Below are positions 14,707 to 49,331 of a stretch of DNA of 53,270 nt, in pieces. Position 1 is the first letter of the stretch; each line of letters opens with the position of its first letter. Where the stretch lies: assembly GCA_947460455.1 (NCBI GenBank), contig CANHKG010000006.1, positions 1-53,270 on the forward strand, read 5' to 3'. The notes under the pieces are model-generated. The model worked only from the letters and a program-made list of their open reading frames with translations. It had not been told where the DNA came from and made no database searches. This DNA is from Rhodospirillales bacterium (GTDB lineage Bacteria; Pseudomonadota; Alphaproteobacteria; Acetobacterales; Acetobacteraceae). The position numbers and the translations under genes are program-made.

Positions 14707-16164
14707 TCAGCGCGGCTGCATCACGGAGACGTCGATGCCGCTGTCGTCCCGCGCGCCGCCGCGCAGCAGGCGGATCTCCTGCCGCGTGGCTGAAAGTGCC
14801 GCCACGGCGGCCTCATGCCGCGCCGTGGCGCGCCGGGTCACGATCCAGACTGTCGTATCGCGCTCTGGCGCCGGCAGCGCCTCGCCTGGCGCCAGGCTCC
14901 GGCCAGGGAAGCGGCCGTACCACGCAACGTCCCTGGTGCCGTAGAGCTCGTATCCCGCTGCATTCCAGCCATGGTGGCGCAGCATCAGTTCGGCCTCCAT
15001 CGGCACTACCAAGATGGCATCGCCGGGCTGCATGCGTGCGCTCAGCAGGGCGGCGACCTCCGGCCAGCGTTCCGCCGAAGCGGTGGGCCGCCAGAACGGC
15101 ACCGCGTGCAACTGGGCCACGCCGAGCAGGGCGGCCAGCGCGAGGCCGGCCCAGCGCATCCGCCCGAGTGCCACGCCGACCAGCACGATGAACACCGGTA
15201 CCAGCCAAAGCAGCACGCGCCCGTTCATCAGCGGGCGCCACTGGCTGATGATCCAGGTGGCCGCCGGCACCGATGCCAGCACCGCCACCAGCCCCAGCGC
15301 CGCCCAGCGGCCGAGCCCGCCGCGCCGCACCAGCAGCGCCGCCCCCGCCGCGCCGAGCCCGATGAATGCCGCATCCGCCCAGGGCTGCGGCCAGTCGATC
15401 CACGGCAGGCCCACCACCTTCTGCACCGCGTAGCGCAGGGCCGTCAGCGAGGGGACCGGGATCCAGAAGCGGCCCAGCGTGTCGCCCAGCTGGAACAGCA
15501 CCGTCGGCAGCCAGAACAGCCAGGCGAGCGCCACGCCCGCCTGGACTGCGAGCCAGCGCCGCTCCATCCCCGGCCGCACCTGGCCGCCGAGCCACAACAC
15601 GAGGGCGAAACCGTTCAGCGCGGCCAGCATGATCGCGGCCACGTTGTGGGTGTAGAGCGCCAGCGCCTCCACCAGCCCCAGCGCCGCGAACCAGCGCCAG
15701 CGCCCGTCGCGCAGGGCGGTGAGGGCCAGCAGGATGGCCAGCAGCCCGAGCAGCCCGAGCAGCGAATAGGCCCGCGCCTCCAGGCTCAGTTCGATCAGTG
15801 TGGCTGAGCAGGCCACCAGCCAAGCGGCCGCCAGCCCCGCCAGCGCCCCGCCCAGCCGCCAGGCGAGCAACCCGGCCGCGGCGGCGGTGGCGGCATCCGG
15901 CAGGATGGAGAGCAGGCGCAGCCCTTCGGGTGACAAGCCGAGCCGTGCACCGATCCCGGCGAGGGCGTAGAACAGGGGTGGGTTCGTCTCCTGCCGGCCG
16001 GCGGCGCCCCACAGCTCCGCCCAGGGGAGGGAGGCGAAGTAGGCGGTGGCGGCTTCGTCGAAGGTGAGTTCGCGGTGCGGCAGCATGAACAGGCGCAGCG
16101 CGAGCCCGAGCAGGCCCGCGGCGGCGATCCCCGACGCGACAAGGCGCTGCTTTCCGACCGGCAT
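14707..16164 (-). CDS. GT39-type membrane glycosyltransferase
   Basis: A 485-residue multi-pass membrane protein. It begins with an N-terminal membrane helix and then HRELTFDEAATAYFASLPW, placing an Asp-Glu pair in the first periplasmic loop as in PMT/ArnT-type glycosyltransferases, followed by RQETNPPLFYALAGIGARLG. About ten further hydrophobic segments follow, then a soluble C-terminal part (about 400-485) containing PGDAILVVPMEAELMLRHHG. Such enzymes transfer a sugar from a polyprenyl-phosphate donor to a lipid or protein on the outer face of the membrane. The neighbouring divergent gene encodes an enzyme of the type that makes such donors, so the two may act together; the acceptor is unknown. 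Start ATG at 16164. Confidence 0.8.
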   Translation of the reverse strand: MPVGKQRLVASGIAAAGLLGLALRLFMLPHRELTFDEAATAYFASLPWAELWGAAGRQETNPPLFYALAGIGARLGLSPEGLRLLSILPDAATAAAAGLLAWRLGGALAGLAAAWLVACSATLIELSLEARAYSLLGLLGLLAILLALTALRDGRWRWFAALGLVEALALYTHNVAAIMLAALNGFALVLWLGGQVRPGMERRWLAVQAGVALAWLFWLPTVLFQLGDTLGRFWIPVPSLTALRYAVQKVVGLPWIDWPQPWADAAFIGLGAAGAALLVRRGGLGRWAALGLVAVLASVPAATWIISQWRPLMNGRVLLWLVPVFIVLVGVALGRMRWAGLALAALLGVAQLHAVPFWRPTASAERWPEVAALLSARMQPGDAILVVPMEAELMLRHHGWNAAGYELYGTRDVAWYGRFPGRSLAPGEALPAPERDTTVWIVTRRATARHEAAVAALSATRQEIRLLRGGARDDSGIDVSVMQPR

Positions 16165-16251
16165 GAGCCCAGCTTGACAGTCGTTGCGGGCGTGGCGCAA
16201 GGCTGCGCGTTCCCAACCCTGCATGAGGCATGGCCGATGATGGAGGCCCCG

Positions 16252-17355
16252 ATGGATCAGCCTCATGGTGCCGTGCCCGAGCTGTGCGTGGTGATCCCCG
16301 TGCTGAACGAGCGCGACAACATCGCGCCGATGGTTGCCCGGCTGGGGGAGGTGCTGGCCGGGGTCGAGTGGGAAGTGATCTTCGTGGACGACGATTCGCG
16401 CGATGGCACGCGCGAGGCGGTGCGGGCGGCGGCGGCGGGGCAGGCGCGGGTGCGGCTGCTGCACCGGATCGGGCGGCGGGGCCTGGCCTCGGCGTTCATC
16501 GAGGGGGCACAGGCGAGCCTGGCCACCAACATCGCCGCGATCGATGGGGATTTGCAGCACGACGAGACGCTGCTGCCGAAGATGCTCGCGGTGCTGCGCG
16601 AGGGTAGTACGGATATCGTGGTGGGCAGCCGGCATGTGGAGGGCGGTGGCATGGGCGAGTTCGCCGCCGCACGGGTGGGGATGAGCAACTTCGCCACGCT
16701 GCTTGCGAAACCGGTGCTGCGCACGCCGCTGTCTGACCCGATGAGCGGGTTCTTCATGCTGCGGCGCGAGGTGTTCGACCGGGCGGTGCGGCGGCTGTCG
16801 GCGATGGGGTTCAAGATCCTGCTCGACATCGTCGCCTCGCTGCCGGAGCCGCCCCGCATCCGCGAGCTGCCGTACGAGTTCCGCACGCGCCAGCATGGCG
16901 AGAGCAAGCTGGATGCCGGGGTGCTGCGCGACTACCTGCTGCTGATCGTGGACAAGCTGATCGGGCATATCCTGCCGGTGCGCTTCGTGCTGTTCGCCGG
17001 CGTGGGCGCGGTGGGGATCGCGGCGCATCTGCTCGTGCTGCGGCTGTGCCTGTGGACCTTCGGGCTGGAGTTCGCCGTGGCGCAGACCGTGGCGACCGCG
17101 GTGGCGATCCTGGGCAACTTCCTGCTCAACAACATCTTCACCTTCAGCGACCGGCGGCTGAAGGGGCGGCGGTTCGTGTGGGGCCTGCTGACCTTCGCGG
17201 CGATCTCCGCCATGGGGGCGGCGCTGAACATCAACATCTCGTCGGTGCTGTTCGGACCGGCGCGATGGAGCTGGTATTTCGCGGGCTTCGCGGGGGCGGC
17301 GATGAGCCTAGTGTGGAACTACGCGGTTTCGTCCGCCGTGACCTGGCGCCGCTAG
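16252..17355 (+). CDS. Polyprenyl-phosphate glycosyltransferase (GT2) with C-terminal GtrA domain
   Basis: A 367-residue protein. Residues about 10-235 form a GT2 catalytic domain of the dolichyl-phosphate mannose synthase type: CVVIPVLNERDNIAPMVARL, VIFVDDDSRDGT, AAIDGDLQHDETLLPKML and SDPMSGFFMLRREVFDRAV. Residues about 240-367 hold four hydrophobic helices with FAGVGAVGIAAHLLVLRLCL and NFLLNNIFTFSDRRLKGRRF, typical of GtrA-like domains proposed to flip or handle polyprenyl-linked sugars. The expected product is a polyprenyl-phosphate monosaccharide. Of three clustered in-frame ATGs (16237, 16240, 16252) the last has GGAGG five bases upstream. Its TAG stop lies in a palindromic repeat. Confidence 0.88.
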   Translation: MDQPHGAVPELCVVIPVLNERDNIAPMVARLGEVLAGVEWEVIFVDDDSRDGTREAVRAAAAGQARVRLLHRIGRRGLASAFIEGAQASLATNIAAIDGDLQHDETLLPKMLAVLREGSTDIVVGSRHVEGGGMGEFAAARVGMSNFATLLAKPVLRTPLSDPMSGFFMLRREVFDRAVRRLSAMGFKILLDIVASLPEPPRIRELPYEFRTRQHGESKLDAGVLRDYLLLIVDKLIGHILPVRFVLFAGVGAVGIAAHLLVLRLCLWTFGLEFAVAQTVATAVAILGNFLLNNIFTFSDRRLKGRRFVWGLLTFAAISAMGAALNINISSVLFGPARWSWYFAGFAGAAMSLVWNYAVSSAVTWRR

Positions 17356-17458
17356 AGCGGTAGCCGACCTGATAGAAGGTCAGCCACCACTCTAGCTCTT
17401 TGTTTTGGCGAGCAACTTAAGCCTGTCGGATGATTCCATCCGATAGGCTGTTGCTCTA
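17353..17458. repeat. Palindromic intergenic element with two hairpins
   Basis: A 106-base element bounded by TAGAGC (17353-17358) and GCTCTA (17453-17458). It folds as two hairpins. The first (about 17353-17393) has interrupted arms: TAGAG/CTCTA, GGT/ACC, GC/GC, GACCT/AGGTC. The second (17411-17455) has arms AGCAAC/GTTGCT, AGCCT/AGGCT and TCGGATG/CATCCGA around an ATTC loop. Between them is CTCTAGCTCTTTGTTTTGGC, a stretch resembling dispersed palindromic elements I associate with other alphaproteobacteria. The TAG stops of both convergent flanking genes are formed by the element's ends. It may also act as a bidirectional terminator. Confidence 0.75.
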
Positions 17459-18154
17459 GGGGCGGCGATAGGCCGACCAGTAGAGCGGGCCACGGCCGGC
17501 GGCCAGCGCCTTGGCCTCGTAGCGGGTGGGGGGCCATCCCTCGGGGCGGGTGGTGGCCGGCGGGGGCACATCGAACAGGGTTTGGGCCGCGAGCACGTCG
17601 GCGGTCCAGGCCTGGTAGGTGGGATCGTCGCTGGCGATGCGCCATTCGGCGCCGGGCTTCAGCACGCGGGCAACGACCTTGAGCATTTCCGGATGCACGA
17701 AGCGGCGCTTGGCGTGGCGGGCCTTGGGCCAGGGGTCGGGGAACATCAGGAACAGGCGATCGAGGCAGGCGGCGGGCAGCGTGCGCAGCAGCACGCGGGC
17801 GTCGTCATCCCACAGGCGCAAATTGCCGGGCAGCGGGGCGGTGGCCTCGCCGCCTTCGGGGACCACGCGGGAGAGCAGGGAGCAGATGCCGTTCTCGAAC
17901 ACCTCGCAGGCGATCAGGCCGATCTGCGGGTTGGTGGCGATCTGGGCGAGCGCGTGCTCGCCGCCGCCGAAGCCGACTTCGAGCCAGAGTTCGCTGGGGC
18001 GGGTTGTGAAGGCGGCGCCTGGGGTCTCGACGGAATCGAAGCGGAGGCGCGGGAGGGTTTCGGCCAGCAGAAGCTTCTGGCGGGGCCGAAGCGTTTGCCC
18101 CCGCTGGCGCCCGTAGAGGCGGTCCGGCGGGGGCTTGACGGTAGGCGTGCTCAG
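17456..18154 (-). CDS. trmB: tRNA (guanine-N7-)-methyltransferase TrmB, apparent CTG start
   Basis: A 232-residue SAM-dependent enzyme that methylates G46 of tRNAs. The frame 18154-17456 reads LSTPTVKPPPDRLYGRQRGQ, then SELWLEVGFGGGEHALAQIA (SAM-binding motif I), LFLMFPDPWPKARHAKRRFV (the diagnostic TrmB motif) and a C-terminal PTRYEAKALAAGRG. No ATG, GTG or TTG exists in this frame between an upstream stop inside metK (TGA at 18178-18176) and a GTG at 17902, which would delete the SAM-binding region. The best candidate start is CTG at 18154, one base after the metK TAA, suggesting translation coupled to metK. The stop lies in the palindromic element downstream. Confidence 0.88.
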   Translation of the reverse strand: MSTPTVKPPPDRLYGRQRGQTLRPRQKLLLAETLPRLRFDSVETPGAAFTTRPSELWLEVGFGGGEHALAQIATNPQIGLIACEVFENGICSLLSRVVPEGGEATAPLPGNLRLWDDDARVLLRTLPAACLDRLFLMFPDPWPKARHAKRRFVHPEMLKVVARVLKPGAEWRIASDDPTYQAWTADVLAAQTLFDVPPPATTRPEGWPPTRYEAKALAAGRGPLYWSAYRRP

Positions 18155-18155
18155 C

Positions 18156-19343
18156 TTAGCGGCCGAAGGCGGACTTCAGGGCGGCGACCAGGTCGGTCTT
18201 TTCCCAGGTGAAGGTGCCCTTTTCCAGATCCGGCTCGCGGCCGAAATGGCCGTAGGCGCTGGTGATGCCGTAGATCGGGCGGTTGAGGTGCAGGTGCTCG
18301 CGGATGCCGCGGGGGCGGAGATCGACCAGCTCGCGCAGGGTCTTCTCCAGCTTGCTCTCATCCACCTCGTAGGGGTTGCCGTGCAGCTCGACATAGAGCG
18401 ACAGCGGGTGGGAGACGCCGATGGCGTAGCTGAGCTGCAGGGTGCAGCGATCGGCCAGGCCCGCGGCCACCACGTTCTTGGCGAGGTAGCGGCAGACATA
18501 GGCGGCGGAACGATCGACCTTGGTGGGGTCCTTGCCGCTGAACGCACCGCCACCGTGGGGCGCAGCCCCACCATACGTGTCCACGATGATCTTGCGCCCG
18601 GTGAGGCCGCAATCGCCATCCGGCCCGCCGATGACGAACTTGCCGGTGGGGTTGATGTAGATTTCCTTCTCCGCCGGCATCCAGCCCTTGGGCAGCACGC
18701 TTTCGATCAGCGGGAGCAGCTTCGCCTTGAGGGCGACCTGGTCCATGCCTTCCTCATGCTGGGTGGAGATCACGACCGAGGTGGCGGCGACCGGCTTGCC
18801 GTCGATGTACTTCAGCGTGACCTGGCTCTTGGCATCCGGCAGCAGGCCGGACACCGAGGCGTCGCCGTTGTTGCGGCGGTCGCGGATGGTACGCAGCAGC
18901 TCGTGCGAATAGTAGAGCGGGGCGGGCATCAGCGTTGGCGTTTCGCGGCAGGCGTAGCCGAACATGATGCCCTGGTCGCCCGCACCTTCATCCTTGTTGC
19001 CGGAGGCGTCGACGCCCACGGCGATGTCGGCGGACTGGGCGTGCAGGTGCACGGCGATGTCGGCATGCTTCCAGGAGAAGCCTTCCTGGTCGTAGCCGAT
19101 GTCCTTGATGGCCATGCGGGTGAGGTGGGTCAGCAGCTCCGGCGTGACGCTGTCGGGGCCGCGGGTTTCGCCGGCGAGGACCACGCGGTTGGTGGTGACG
19201 AGCGTTTCGCAGGCGACGCGCGCATAGGGGTCGGCGGCCAGGTAGGCATCGAGCACCGTGTCGCTGATGCGGTCGGCAACCTTGTCGGGATGGCCTTCCG
19301 AGACCGACTCGGATGTGAACAGGAATTCGCCCTTGTCGCGCAT
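18156..19343 (-). CDS. metK: S-adenosylmethionine synthetase
   Basis: A 395-residue enzyme that makes S-adenosylmethionine from methionine and ATP. Signatures: [20 protein letters not shown] at the N-terminus (catalytic His in GHPDK), [20 protein letters not shown] (ATP-binding motif), [18 protein letters not shown] (P-loop-like motif) and a complete C-terminus. [14 protein letters not shown] at 19343 is the usual start; the longer open frame upstream is non-coding. It is followed after one base by the apparent trmB start. No SAM riboswitch class could be recognised in the 160 bases upstream. Confidence 0.98.
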
Positions 19344-24869: not shown

Positions 24870-24980
24870 GTTCAGCCCTCAGTGTGGCGCTGAAGATCAG
24901 GGCCTCGGCACGCATTAGCGGCTTCGGCCCGGTTTTCGCAACGGGCGCATGCCTTTGGGGAGCCCGAAAGGAAGGAAGGC

Positions 24981-25095
24981 CTTCTTTTTCTGAAGAAAAA
25001 GAAGCAAAAAGACTTTCATTCATTGATGCGGAGAAGCCACGCCTCTCCGCATCAGGTCAGAAAAGTTTTTTGGTTCTTTTTTTCAAAAAAGAACC
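24981..25095. repeat. Composite three-hairpin element, copy 1
   Basis: Three consecutive perfect 11-bp hairpins: T/A-rich hairpin A (24981-25004), a G/C-rich central hairpin (25024-25034 with 25044-25054) and T/A-rich hairpin B (25072-25082 with 25085-25095). Read on the minus strand the order is B, AAAAAACTTTT, centre, A. The same architecture recurs at 49220-49331 with matching A and B but a different centre. It lies directly after the dnaK stop, so hairpin B can act as the dnaK terminator and limit readthrough into dnaJ. Confidence 0.85.
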
Positions 25096-25106
25096 GCTTC
25101 CTTGCC

Positions 25107-35544: not shown

Positions 35545-35590
35545 GCAAGGTCAGGACGTCTTTTTGCTTCTTTTTCTGCAGAAAAAGAAG
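35545..35590. repeat. Composite three-hairpin element, partial copy 3
   Basis: A perfect 24-base palindrome (35567-35590) matches hairpin A of the two full copies. The sequence before it (about 35543-35566) matches the right arm of the centre and the spacer of copy 2, sharing GGCGCAA-GTCAGGA-GTC and TTTTTGCTTC. Hairpin B and the left centre arm are missing. It lies between the divergent Gfo/Idh/MocA and rph genes. Confidence 0.75.
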
Positions 35591-35676
35591 GCGCTTGCTT
35601 GCTTCCCCGCGCCGGGCTTGCGCGGCGGCGCCTGGGCGGTCATGTGGTTCCCATCTTGAGAGATGGAGCCCCGACG

Positions 35677-49209: not shown

Positions 49210-49219
49210 GCAAGGAAGC

Positions 49220-49331
49220 GGTTCTTTTTTGAAAAAAAGAACCAAAAAACTTTTATGACTTTGCGCAAGGGTTAGCCTCGGCGCAAAGTCAGGAAGTCTT
49301 TTTTGCTTCTCTTTTCTTCAGAAAAAAGAAG
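49220..49331. repeat. Composite three-hairpin element, copy 2
   Basis: Hairpin B (49220-49230 with 49233-49243, 11 bp), a central G/C-rich stem (49256-49266 with 49281-49291, 11 bp) and hairpin A (49306-49317 with 49320-49331, one mismatch). A and B and the A-run between B and centre match copy 1 at 24981-25095; the central stem differs in sequence but has the same length. It lies between the convergent dioxygenase and sulfurtransferase genes and can terminate both. Confidence 0.85.

Follow-up and report, generated by a model that had tools for sequence, protein, structure and literature searches.

Why do two convergent genes both end exactly at the boundaries of a single palindromic repeat? 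The question is raised by a 53,270-nt stretch of a Rhodospirillales genome (the window hereinafter, meaning the whole of this stretch), in which a gene for a GT2-GtrA glycosyltransferase and trmB face each other across such a repeat. The first-pass annotation of this DNA had taken the arrangement to suggest either an insertion that trimmed or replaced both 3′ ends, or strong selection for stop codons at the termini of the repeat. Its description of the termini themselves holds: TAGAGC opens and GCTCTA closes 17353-17458, and the list of open reading frames confirms that the stop of GT2-GtrA is the TAG at 17353-17355 and that the TAG of trmB is read from the CTA at 17456-17458. The genes and the parts of the repeat are the following:

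16075-17355, plus strand: GT2 + GtrA glycosyltransferase gene (Pfam PF00535, PF04138)
17456-17902, minus strand: trmB, a tRNA methyltransferase by Pfam match (PF02390, Methyltransf_4), 3′ part
17353-17458, no strand: probable IS630-type MITE including both flanking TA, 106 nt, with evidence from own-genome matches and empty sites
17355-17456, no strand: core of the element, GAGC...GCTC, 102 nt
17353-17354, no strand: target TA, left copy (a single TA at the empty site)
17457-17458, no strand: target TA, right copy (a single TA at the empty site)
17352, no strand: C of the presumably ancestral CTAG target, closing the final sense codon of GT2-GtrA; the empty site has this C too
17459, no strand: G that closes the presumably ancestral CTAG target; the empty site has this G too

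Each stop codon is thus composite: the left TA together with the first G of the element (17355) makes the TAG of GT2-GtrA, and the last C of the element (17456) together with the right TA makes the CTA that is the TAG of trmB. The far ends of the two genes are less sharply defined. The start codon of GT2-GtrA is uncertain, with our home-made gene caller placing it at 16273. The conserved frame of trmB extends upstream of 17902 (17902-18180, minus strand); its N-terminal part, TVKPPPDRLYGRQRGQTLRPRQ..., is kept as a protein frame in four relatives (G005, G007, G008, and G002), and in the window the stretch from the upstream stop to the GTG at 17902 contains no in-frame ATG, GTG, or TTG. One guess is that trmB uses an unusual start, such as a CTG directly after the metK stop.

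The repeat and its empty sites

The element is short (106 nt), multicopy, and without a transposase gene of its own. Nineteen matches to it, some of them partial, are dispersed through its own genome (G000), and further matches were recovered in 14 of the 59 relatives searched, among them seven of the eight belonging to the same genus (own genome not counted). A search of 72,556 plasmid records, a set from which near records of the own genome are possibly missing, gave none, and a comparison of 17000-17900 with Rfam returned a single sub-threshold match (P37, 21.9 bits vs 50).

GT2-GtrA and trmB are also adjacent in two relatives of the same genus, G003 and G005, in which the element is absent. 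The empty junction there, ...CTGGCGCCGC-TA-GGGGCGGCG..., equals that of the window minus 104 nt (one TA among them), and the bases beside the junction are otherwise identical. Both TAG stops overlap, on opposite strands, within one palindromic CTAG, and the TA that occurs once in the empty site occurs twice in the filled one. The C-termini of the two proteins in G003 and G005 are the same as in the window, GtrA ending in TWRR and TrmB in SAYRRP immediately before the stop. The empty site in these two relatives bears out the part of the first-pass proposal that invoked an insertion, whereas the idea that this insertion trimmed or replaced the gene ends is refuted by element-free orthologs that end at the same residues, an outcome that the annotation itself had named as refuting it. 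Replacement, in which both genes would have lost their former 3′ ends to an element that brought its own stops, would fit coding regions that stop exactly at the boundaries of the element; yet the element-free orthologs have those residues followed by overlapping TAG stops, and a second site at which an element ends both of its neighbors (G000:C98, L006) is likewise a single CTAG when empty, as seen in G003. We accordingly give replacement next to no chance. At this second site, G001 and G005 have CTAG and CTAA, with a 6-nt length difference nearby; for a third site (L002), the relatives yielded one-flank matches only and no full empty site.

The absence of the element at the GT2-GtrA/trmB junction extends to all six relatives from the genus that were found to have the two genes side by side (G002, G003, G004, G005, G007, and G008), and we infer that the empty state is ancestral. 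GtrA ends in TWRR in five of these six, the exception being G004. The C-terminus of TrmB differs in G002, G004, G007, and G008; three of these four are without CTAG at the junction, and at the junction of G002 a CTAG is present but is the stop of GtrA only. As for the second TA of the filled site, an empty site with a single TA fits duplication of the TA and an element carrying an extra TA alike. Taken side by side, the filled and empty sites show how a mobile element can land on the ends of two genes at once with the end of neither protein altered.

Target sequence and the genomic background of CTAG

The survey of copies drew on 77 loci, 19 from the own genome and 58 from eight relatives, which are a part of the places listed (at most the best ~14 candidates per genome). 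Requiring a coverage of at least 85 nt of the query gave 71 rows, and removal of one composite (a 91-nt minus-strand row at L046, which fuses a truncated neighbor with a real copy in reverse) left 70 copies. TA is found at both ends in 56 of these 70; 64 have a C immediately ahead of the left TA, 56 have a G immediately behind the right TA, and 53 have both, giving a target rule in which TA is preferred within CTAG. The L046 locus itself (G003:C116:10819-10976) holds a truncated copy of the element in head-to-tail order with a complete one. The two have a single TA in common, which would fit one copy having inserted at the terminal TA of the other.

Scored for the use of a terminal TAG as a stop, 49 of the 70 copies supply one or both in frame, so that most copies lie on stop codons; the other refuting outcome named in the first-pass annotation, a majority of copies away from stops, did not arise. 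Both convergent genes take their stop from the element in 15 copies, one gene does in 34, and none does in 21. When apparently orthologous sites are merged, which can be done approximately, 63 events result, of which 13 supply both stops, 32 one, and 18 none.

For the background, genes were called with a simple home-made caller, and element copies were masked. CTAG is ~14-fold depleted in the own genome (0.20/kb observed vs 2.82/kb expected from base composition); the 453 kb sampled contain 91 CTAG outside elements, which comprise 35 that are the stop of one gene, three common to the stops of two genes, 25 inside genes, and 28 elsewhere. The corresponding figures for 400 kb of G005 are 107 CTAG, with 31 serving as one stop, four shared, 21 in genes, and 51 elsewhere. 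The use of stops by the copies (49/70, 15 with both) exceeds that expected by chance from background CTAG in the own genome (38/91, three shared). Gene orientation departs from the background as well: of the events for which both neighbors are known, 36/51 have convergent ones, the figure for non-interior CTAG sites being 30/148 (p ~2e-10); this background covers the own genome and G005, and the copies a larger set of genomes. Shared stops are also in excess overall (13/51 events vs 7/148 non-interior CTAG sites, p = 1e-4); within convergent junctions, an extra preference for them is unsupported (13/36 vs 7/30, not significant at p = 0.29).

The other arm of the first-pass proposal, strong selection for stops at the termini, is hence not needed: CTAG is depleted, it is often a stop where it is left, and shared stops are not significantly preferred. 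With no such preference shown within convergent junctions, the target rule together with retention at convergent 3′ ends explains the pattern, and the both-stops arrangement recurs because CTAG is rare, its remaining sites are often stops, and persisting insertions lie mostly at convergent 3′ ends. The convergent bias would then stem from retention at such ends. All that it takes is a target that is both a palindrome and a stop codon, the duplication of two bases, and a G at the terminus of the element. A repeat whose ends are stop codons is thereby accounted for, a pattern that one might mistake for truncated genes or for selection on stop codons.

Insertion sequences with related ends

Several sequences with ends related to those of the element were found near contig ends, as expected because insertion sequences (IS) collapse in assembly. 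One contig (C144:1-965) comprises most of one IS, with its first 57 nt identical to the inward portion of the opposite end of this IS. It contains two ORFs with Pfam matches to HTH_23 and HTH_Tnp_IS630 (PF01710), and to DDE_3 (PF13358, E 3e-34). Compared by eye, its ends, TAGAGCAGTAGCCCA and TAGAGCGTTAGCCGA, agree with the ends of the element at 12/16 and 14/16 bases, and a relative of this IS in G008 has an end, TAGAGCGGTAGCCGAT, that agrees at 15/16. The likeness spans only ~16 nt, and no IS with ends identical to those of the element was found, which makes this IS a candidate partner. Thirty-two IS ends were examined, 30 of them anchored: C precedes the TA in 25 and T in five, the same target as that of the element, and six of the 32 supply the TAG of a neighboring gene. 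Against the link to IS630, the G005 assembly gave no DDE_3 match despite its 16 matches to the element; matches to IS ends are present on its contigs.

Taking these ends with the empty sites and the target rule, we consider it highly probable that the element is a non-autonomous MITE of the IS630/Tc1-mariner type, lodged in the central TA of the CTAG where both stops overlap in relatives. Judging from the shared termini, an IS630-type transposase would have mobilized it in trans, inserting it by cut and paste into the central TA with duplication of that TA. The terminal G of the element rebuilds TAG on each strand and so leaves the C-termini of both proteins unchanged; CTAG is rare in this GC-rich genome and often a stop where it is left, and the surviving insertions are mostly at convergent 3′ ends. 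IS630 itself reportedly prefers the TA in CTAG, going by the title of a 1991 paper by Tenzen and Ohtsubo. Elements of the IS630 family are described as inserting at TA and duplicating it, and those of Shigella sonnei (IS630) and ISY100 have the same TA target and TA duplication as the present element (PMC2170065); they are autonomous, whereas the present element encodes nothing.

The nearest known element is RUP (repeat unit of pneumococcus), an IS630-Spn1-related MITE whose likeness is one of description. According to PMC2229807, RUP is 107 bp long, inserts at TA, and has terminal inverted repeats (TIRs) resembling those of an IS630-family IS of its host, with indirect evidence suggesting mobilization by IS630-Spn1. 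The present element is very probably a further IS630-type MITE, of the same kind as RUP; it differs from RUP in its host, in its preference for CTAG, in having many copies on convergent stop codons, and in its two co-varying hairpins. Among the matches listed, titles and abstract openings describe no MITE that splits the overlapping stops of convergent genes.

Two other origins were weighed against the IS630-type one. The presence of two palindromes per element, and of one Y1_Tnp gene above the family cut-off in the own genome, would suit a REP/BIME-like repeat mobilized by a RAYT (Y1 tyrosine transposase); but the 3.3-kb locus of that gene has other, GTAG-tagged palindromes and only a 9-base match to the element, which for its part has ends in common with an IS630 IS and TA on both sides. 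With the own genome searched, the palindrome of the element was not found flanking the Y1 transposase gene, and we disfavor a RAYT-mobilized repeat as extremely improbable. The single RAYT-like Y1 gene (L340, G000:C4:3983-4318) is accompanied by its own tagged palindromes, GTAGCCCGCATC...GATGCGGGC, which are unrelated to the element.

IS711, which is associated with the Bru-RS repeats of Brucella, is an IS5-family element. A MITE of an IS like this one, from the IS5/IS427 group, would follow the same target rule, IS711 being described as targeting YTAR and duplicating TA (PMC2266754). Yet the IS that shares the ends of the element carries IS630 domains, and PF13586, the IS5-type domain searched in the own genome, gave two matches that are both below the cut-off; an IS5-type origin is accordingly disfavored and, in our assessment, very unlikely. 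Bru-RS, too, is palindromic and dispersed, and its copies measure 103-105 bp (PMC2267715; compared by description); it is associated with a YTAR-targeting IS (PMC2266754), just as the present element too adjoins an IS end, in G005:C83. At that place (L136/L153, G005:C83:15671-15852), the terminal CTA is common to the IS end and the element copy, as if one of them had used the end of the other as its target. A further element of comparable size is MITEPsy1 of Pseudomonas syringae, a 100-nt MITE that inserts at CTAG or YTAA; by the account in PMC3189936, it differs from the present element in its 4-nt duplication, tentative IS5 assignment, and different TIRs.

The two hairpins and convergent 3′ ends

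Two hairpins make up the predicted fold of the 106 nt, which at −56.5 kcal/mol (z = −9.0) was equaled by 0/200 shuffles:

17353-17394, no strand: hairpin 1 (H1), TAGAG...CTCTA, from the fold, with double-sided changes in 11/17 pairs
17410-17456, no strand: hairpin 2 (H2), GAGCAAC...GTTGCTC, from the fold, with double-sided changes in 8/20 pairs

We aligned 62 copies, one per site; these are related, and changes in them are not independent. Across both hairpins, 92.7% of the cells are paired, and double-sided changes affect 19 of the 37 pairs and 162 cells, as against a shuffle mean of 48.6 such cells, with 0/500 shuffles reaching 162. When the partners are slid, pairing falls to at most 44.3% of cells and double-sided changes to at most 33 cells, and pairing of the element end to end gives no double-sided changes in the 62 copies. 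DDE transposition is not known to need such hairpins. Because it should not require them, they are either selected, as RNA or as cruciforms, or maintained through palindrome correction.

The compensatory changes in both hairpins (end-to-end pairing having none) and the convergent bias described above would both be expected if the element, its IS630-type arrival unchanged, were kept by positive selection as a bidirectional 3′-end module between convergent genes, where it might act as RNA 3′-end protection, as a transcription barrier, or as a supercoil sink. Each of these lines can also be read otherwise. Purifying selection against insertion in operons and promoters yields the same distribution, and intramolecular palindrome correction can also generate compensatory changes, which in related copies are not independent. 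Moreover, no T-run or terminator-like site (a stem followed by a T-run, as in an intrinsic terminator) occurs in 17200-17650, and the counts of G-T versus A-C point in opposite directions in the two hairpins (14 vs 74 in H1, 27 vs 18 in H2), giving no clear RNA strand signal. We therefore regard positive selection for such a module as possible but less likely than not. The fuller proposal, that a stop-regenerating transposon has turned into a bidirectional 3′-end module, splitting overlapping TAG stops of convergent genes by virtue of its CTAG target and its ends that begin with G, while leaving the proteins unaltered and adding two selected hairpins, strikes us as rather unlikely. If it were true, the inserted hairpins would furnish the two genes with separate 3′ untranslated regions and shield both from antisense read-through. 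The filled and empty sites are natural pairs of alleles in which an influence of such hairpin repeats on the transcription ends of convergent genes could be seen.

Elsewhere in the window, there are two other near-identical inverted repeat pairs (25056-25105 with 49210-49259, and 24979-25013 with 35558-35592), which are T/A-rich hairpins of terminator-like appearance dispersed through it.
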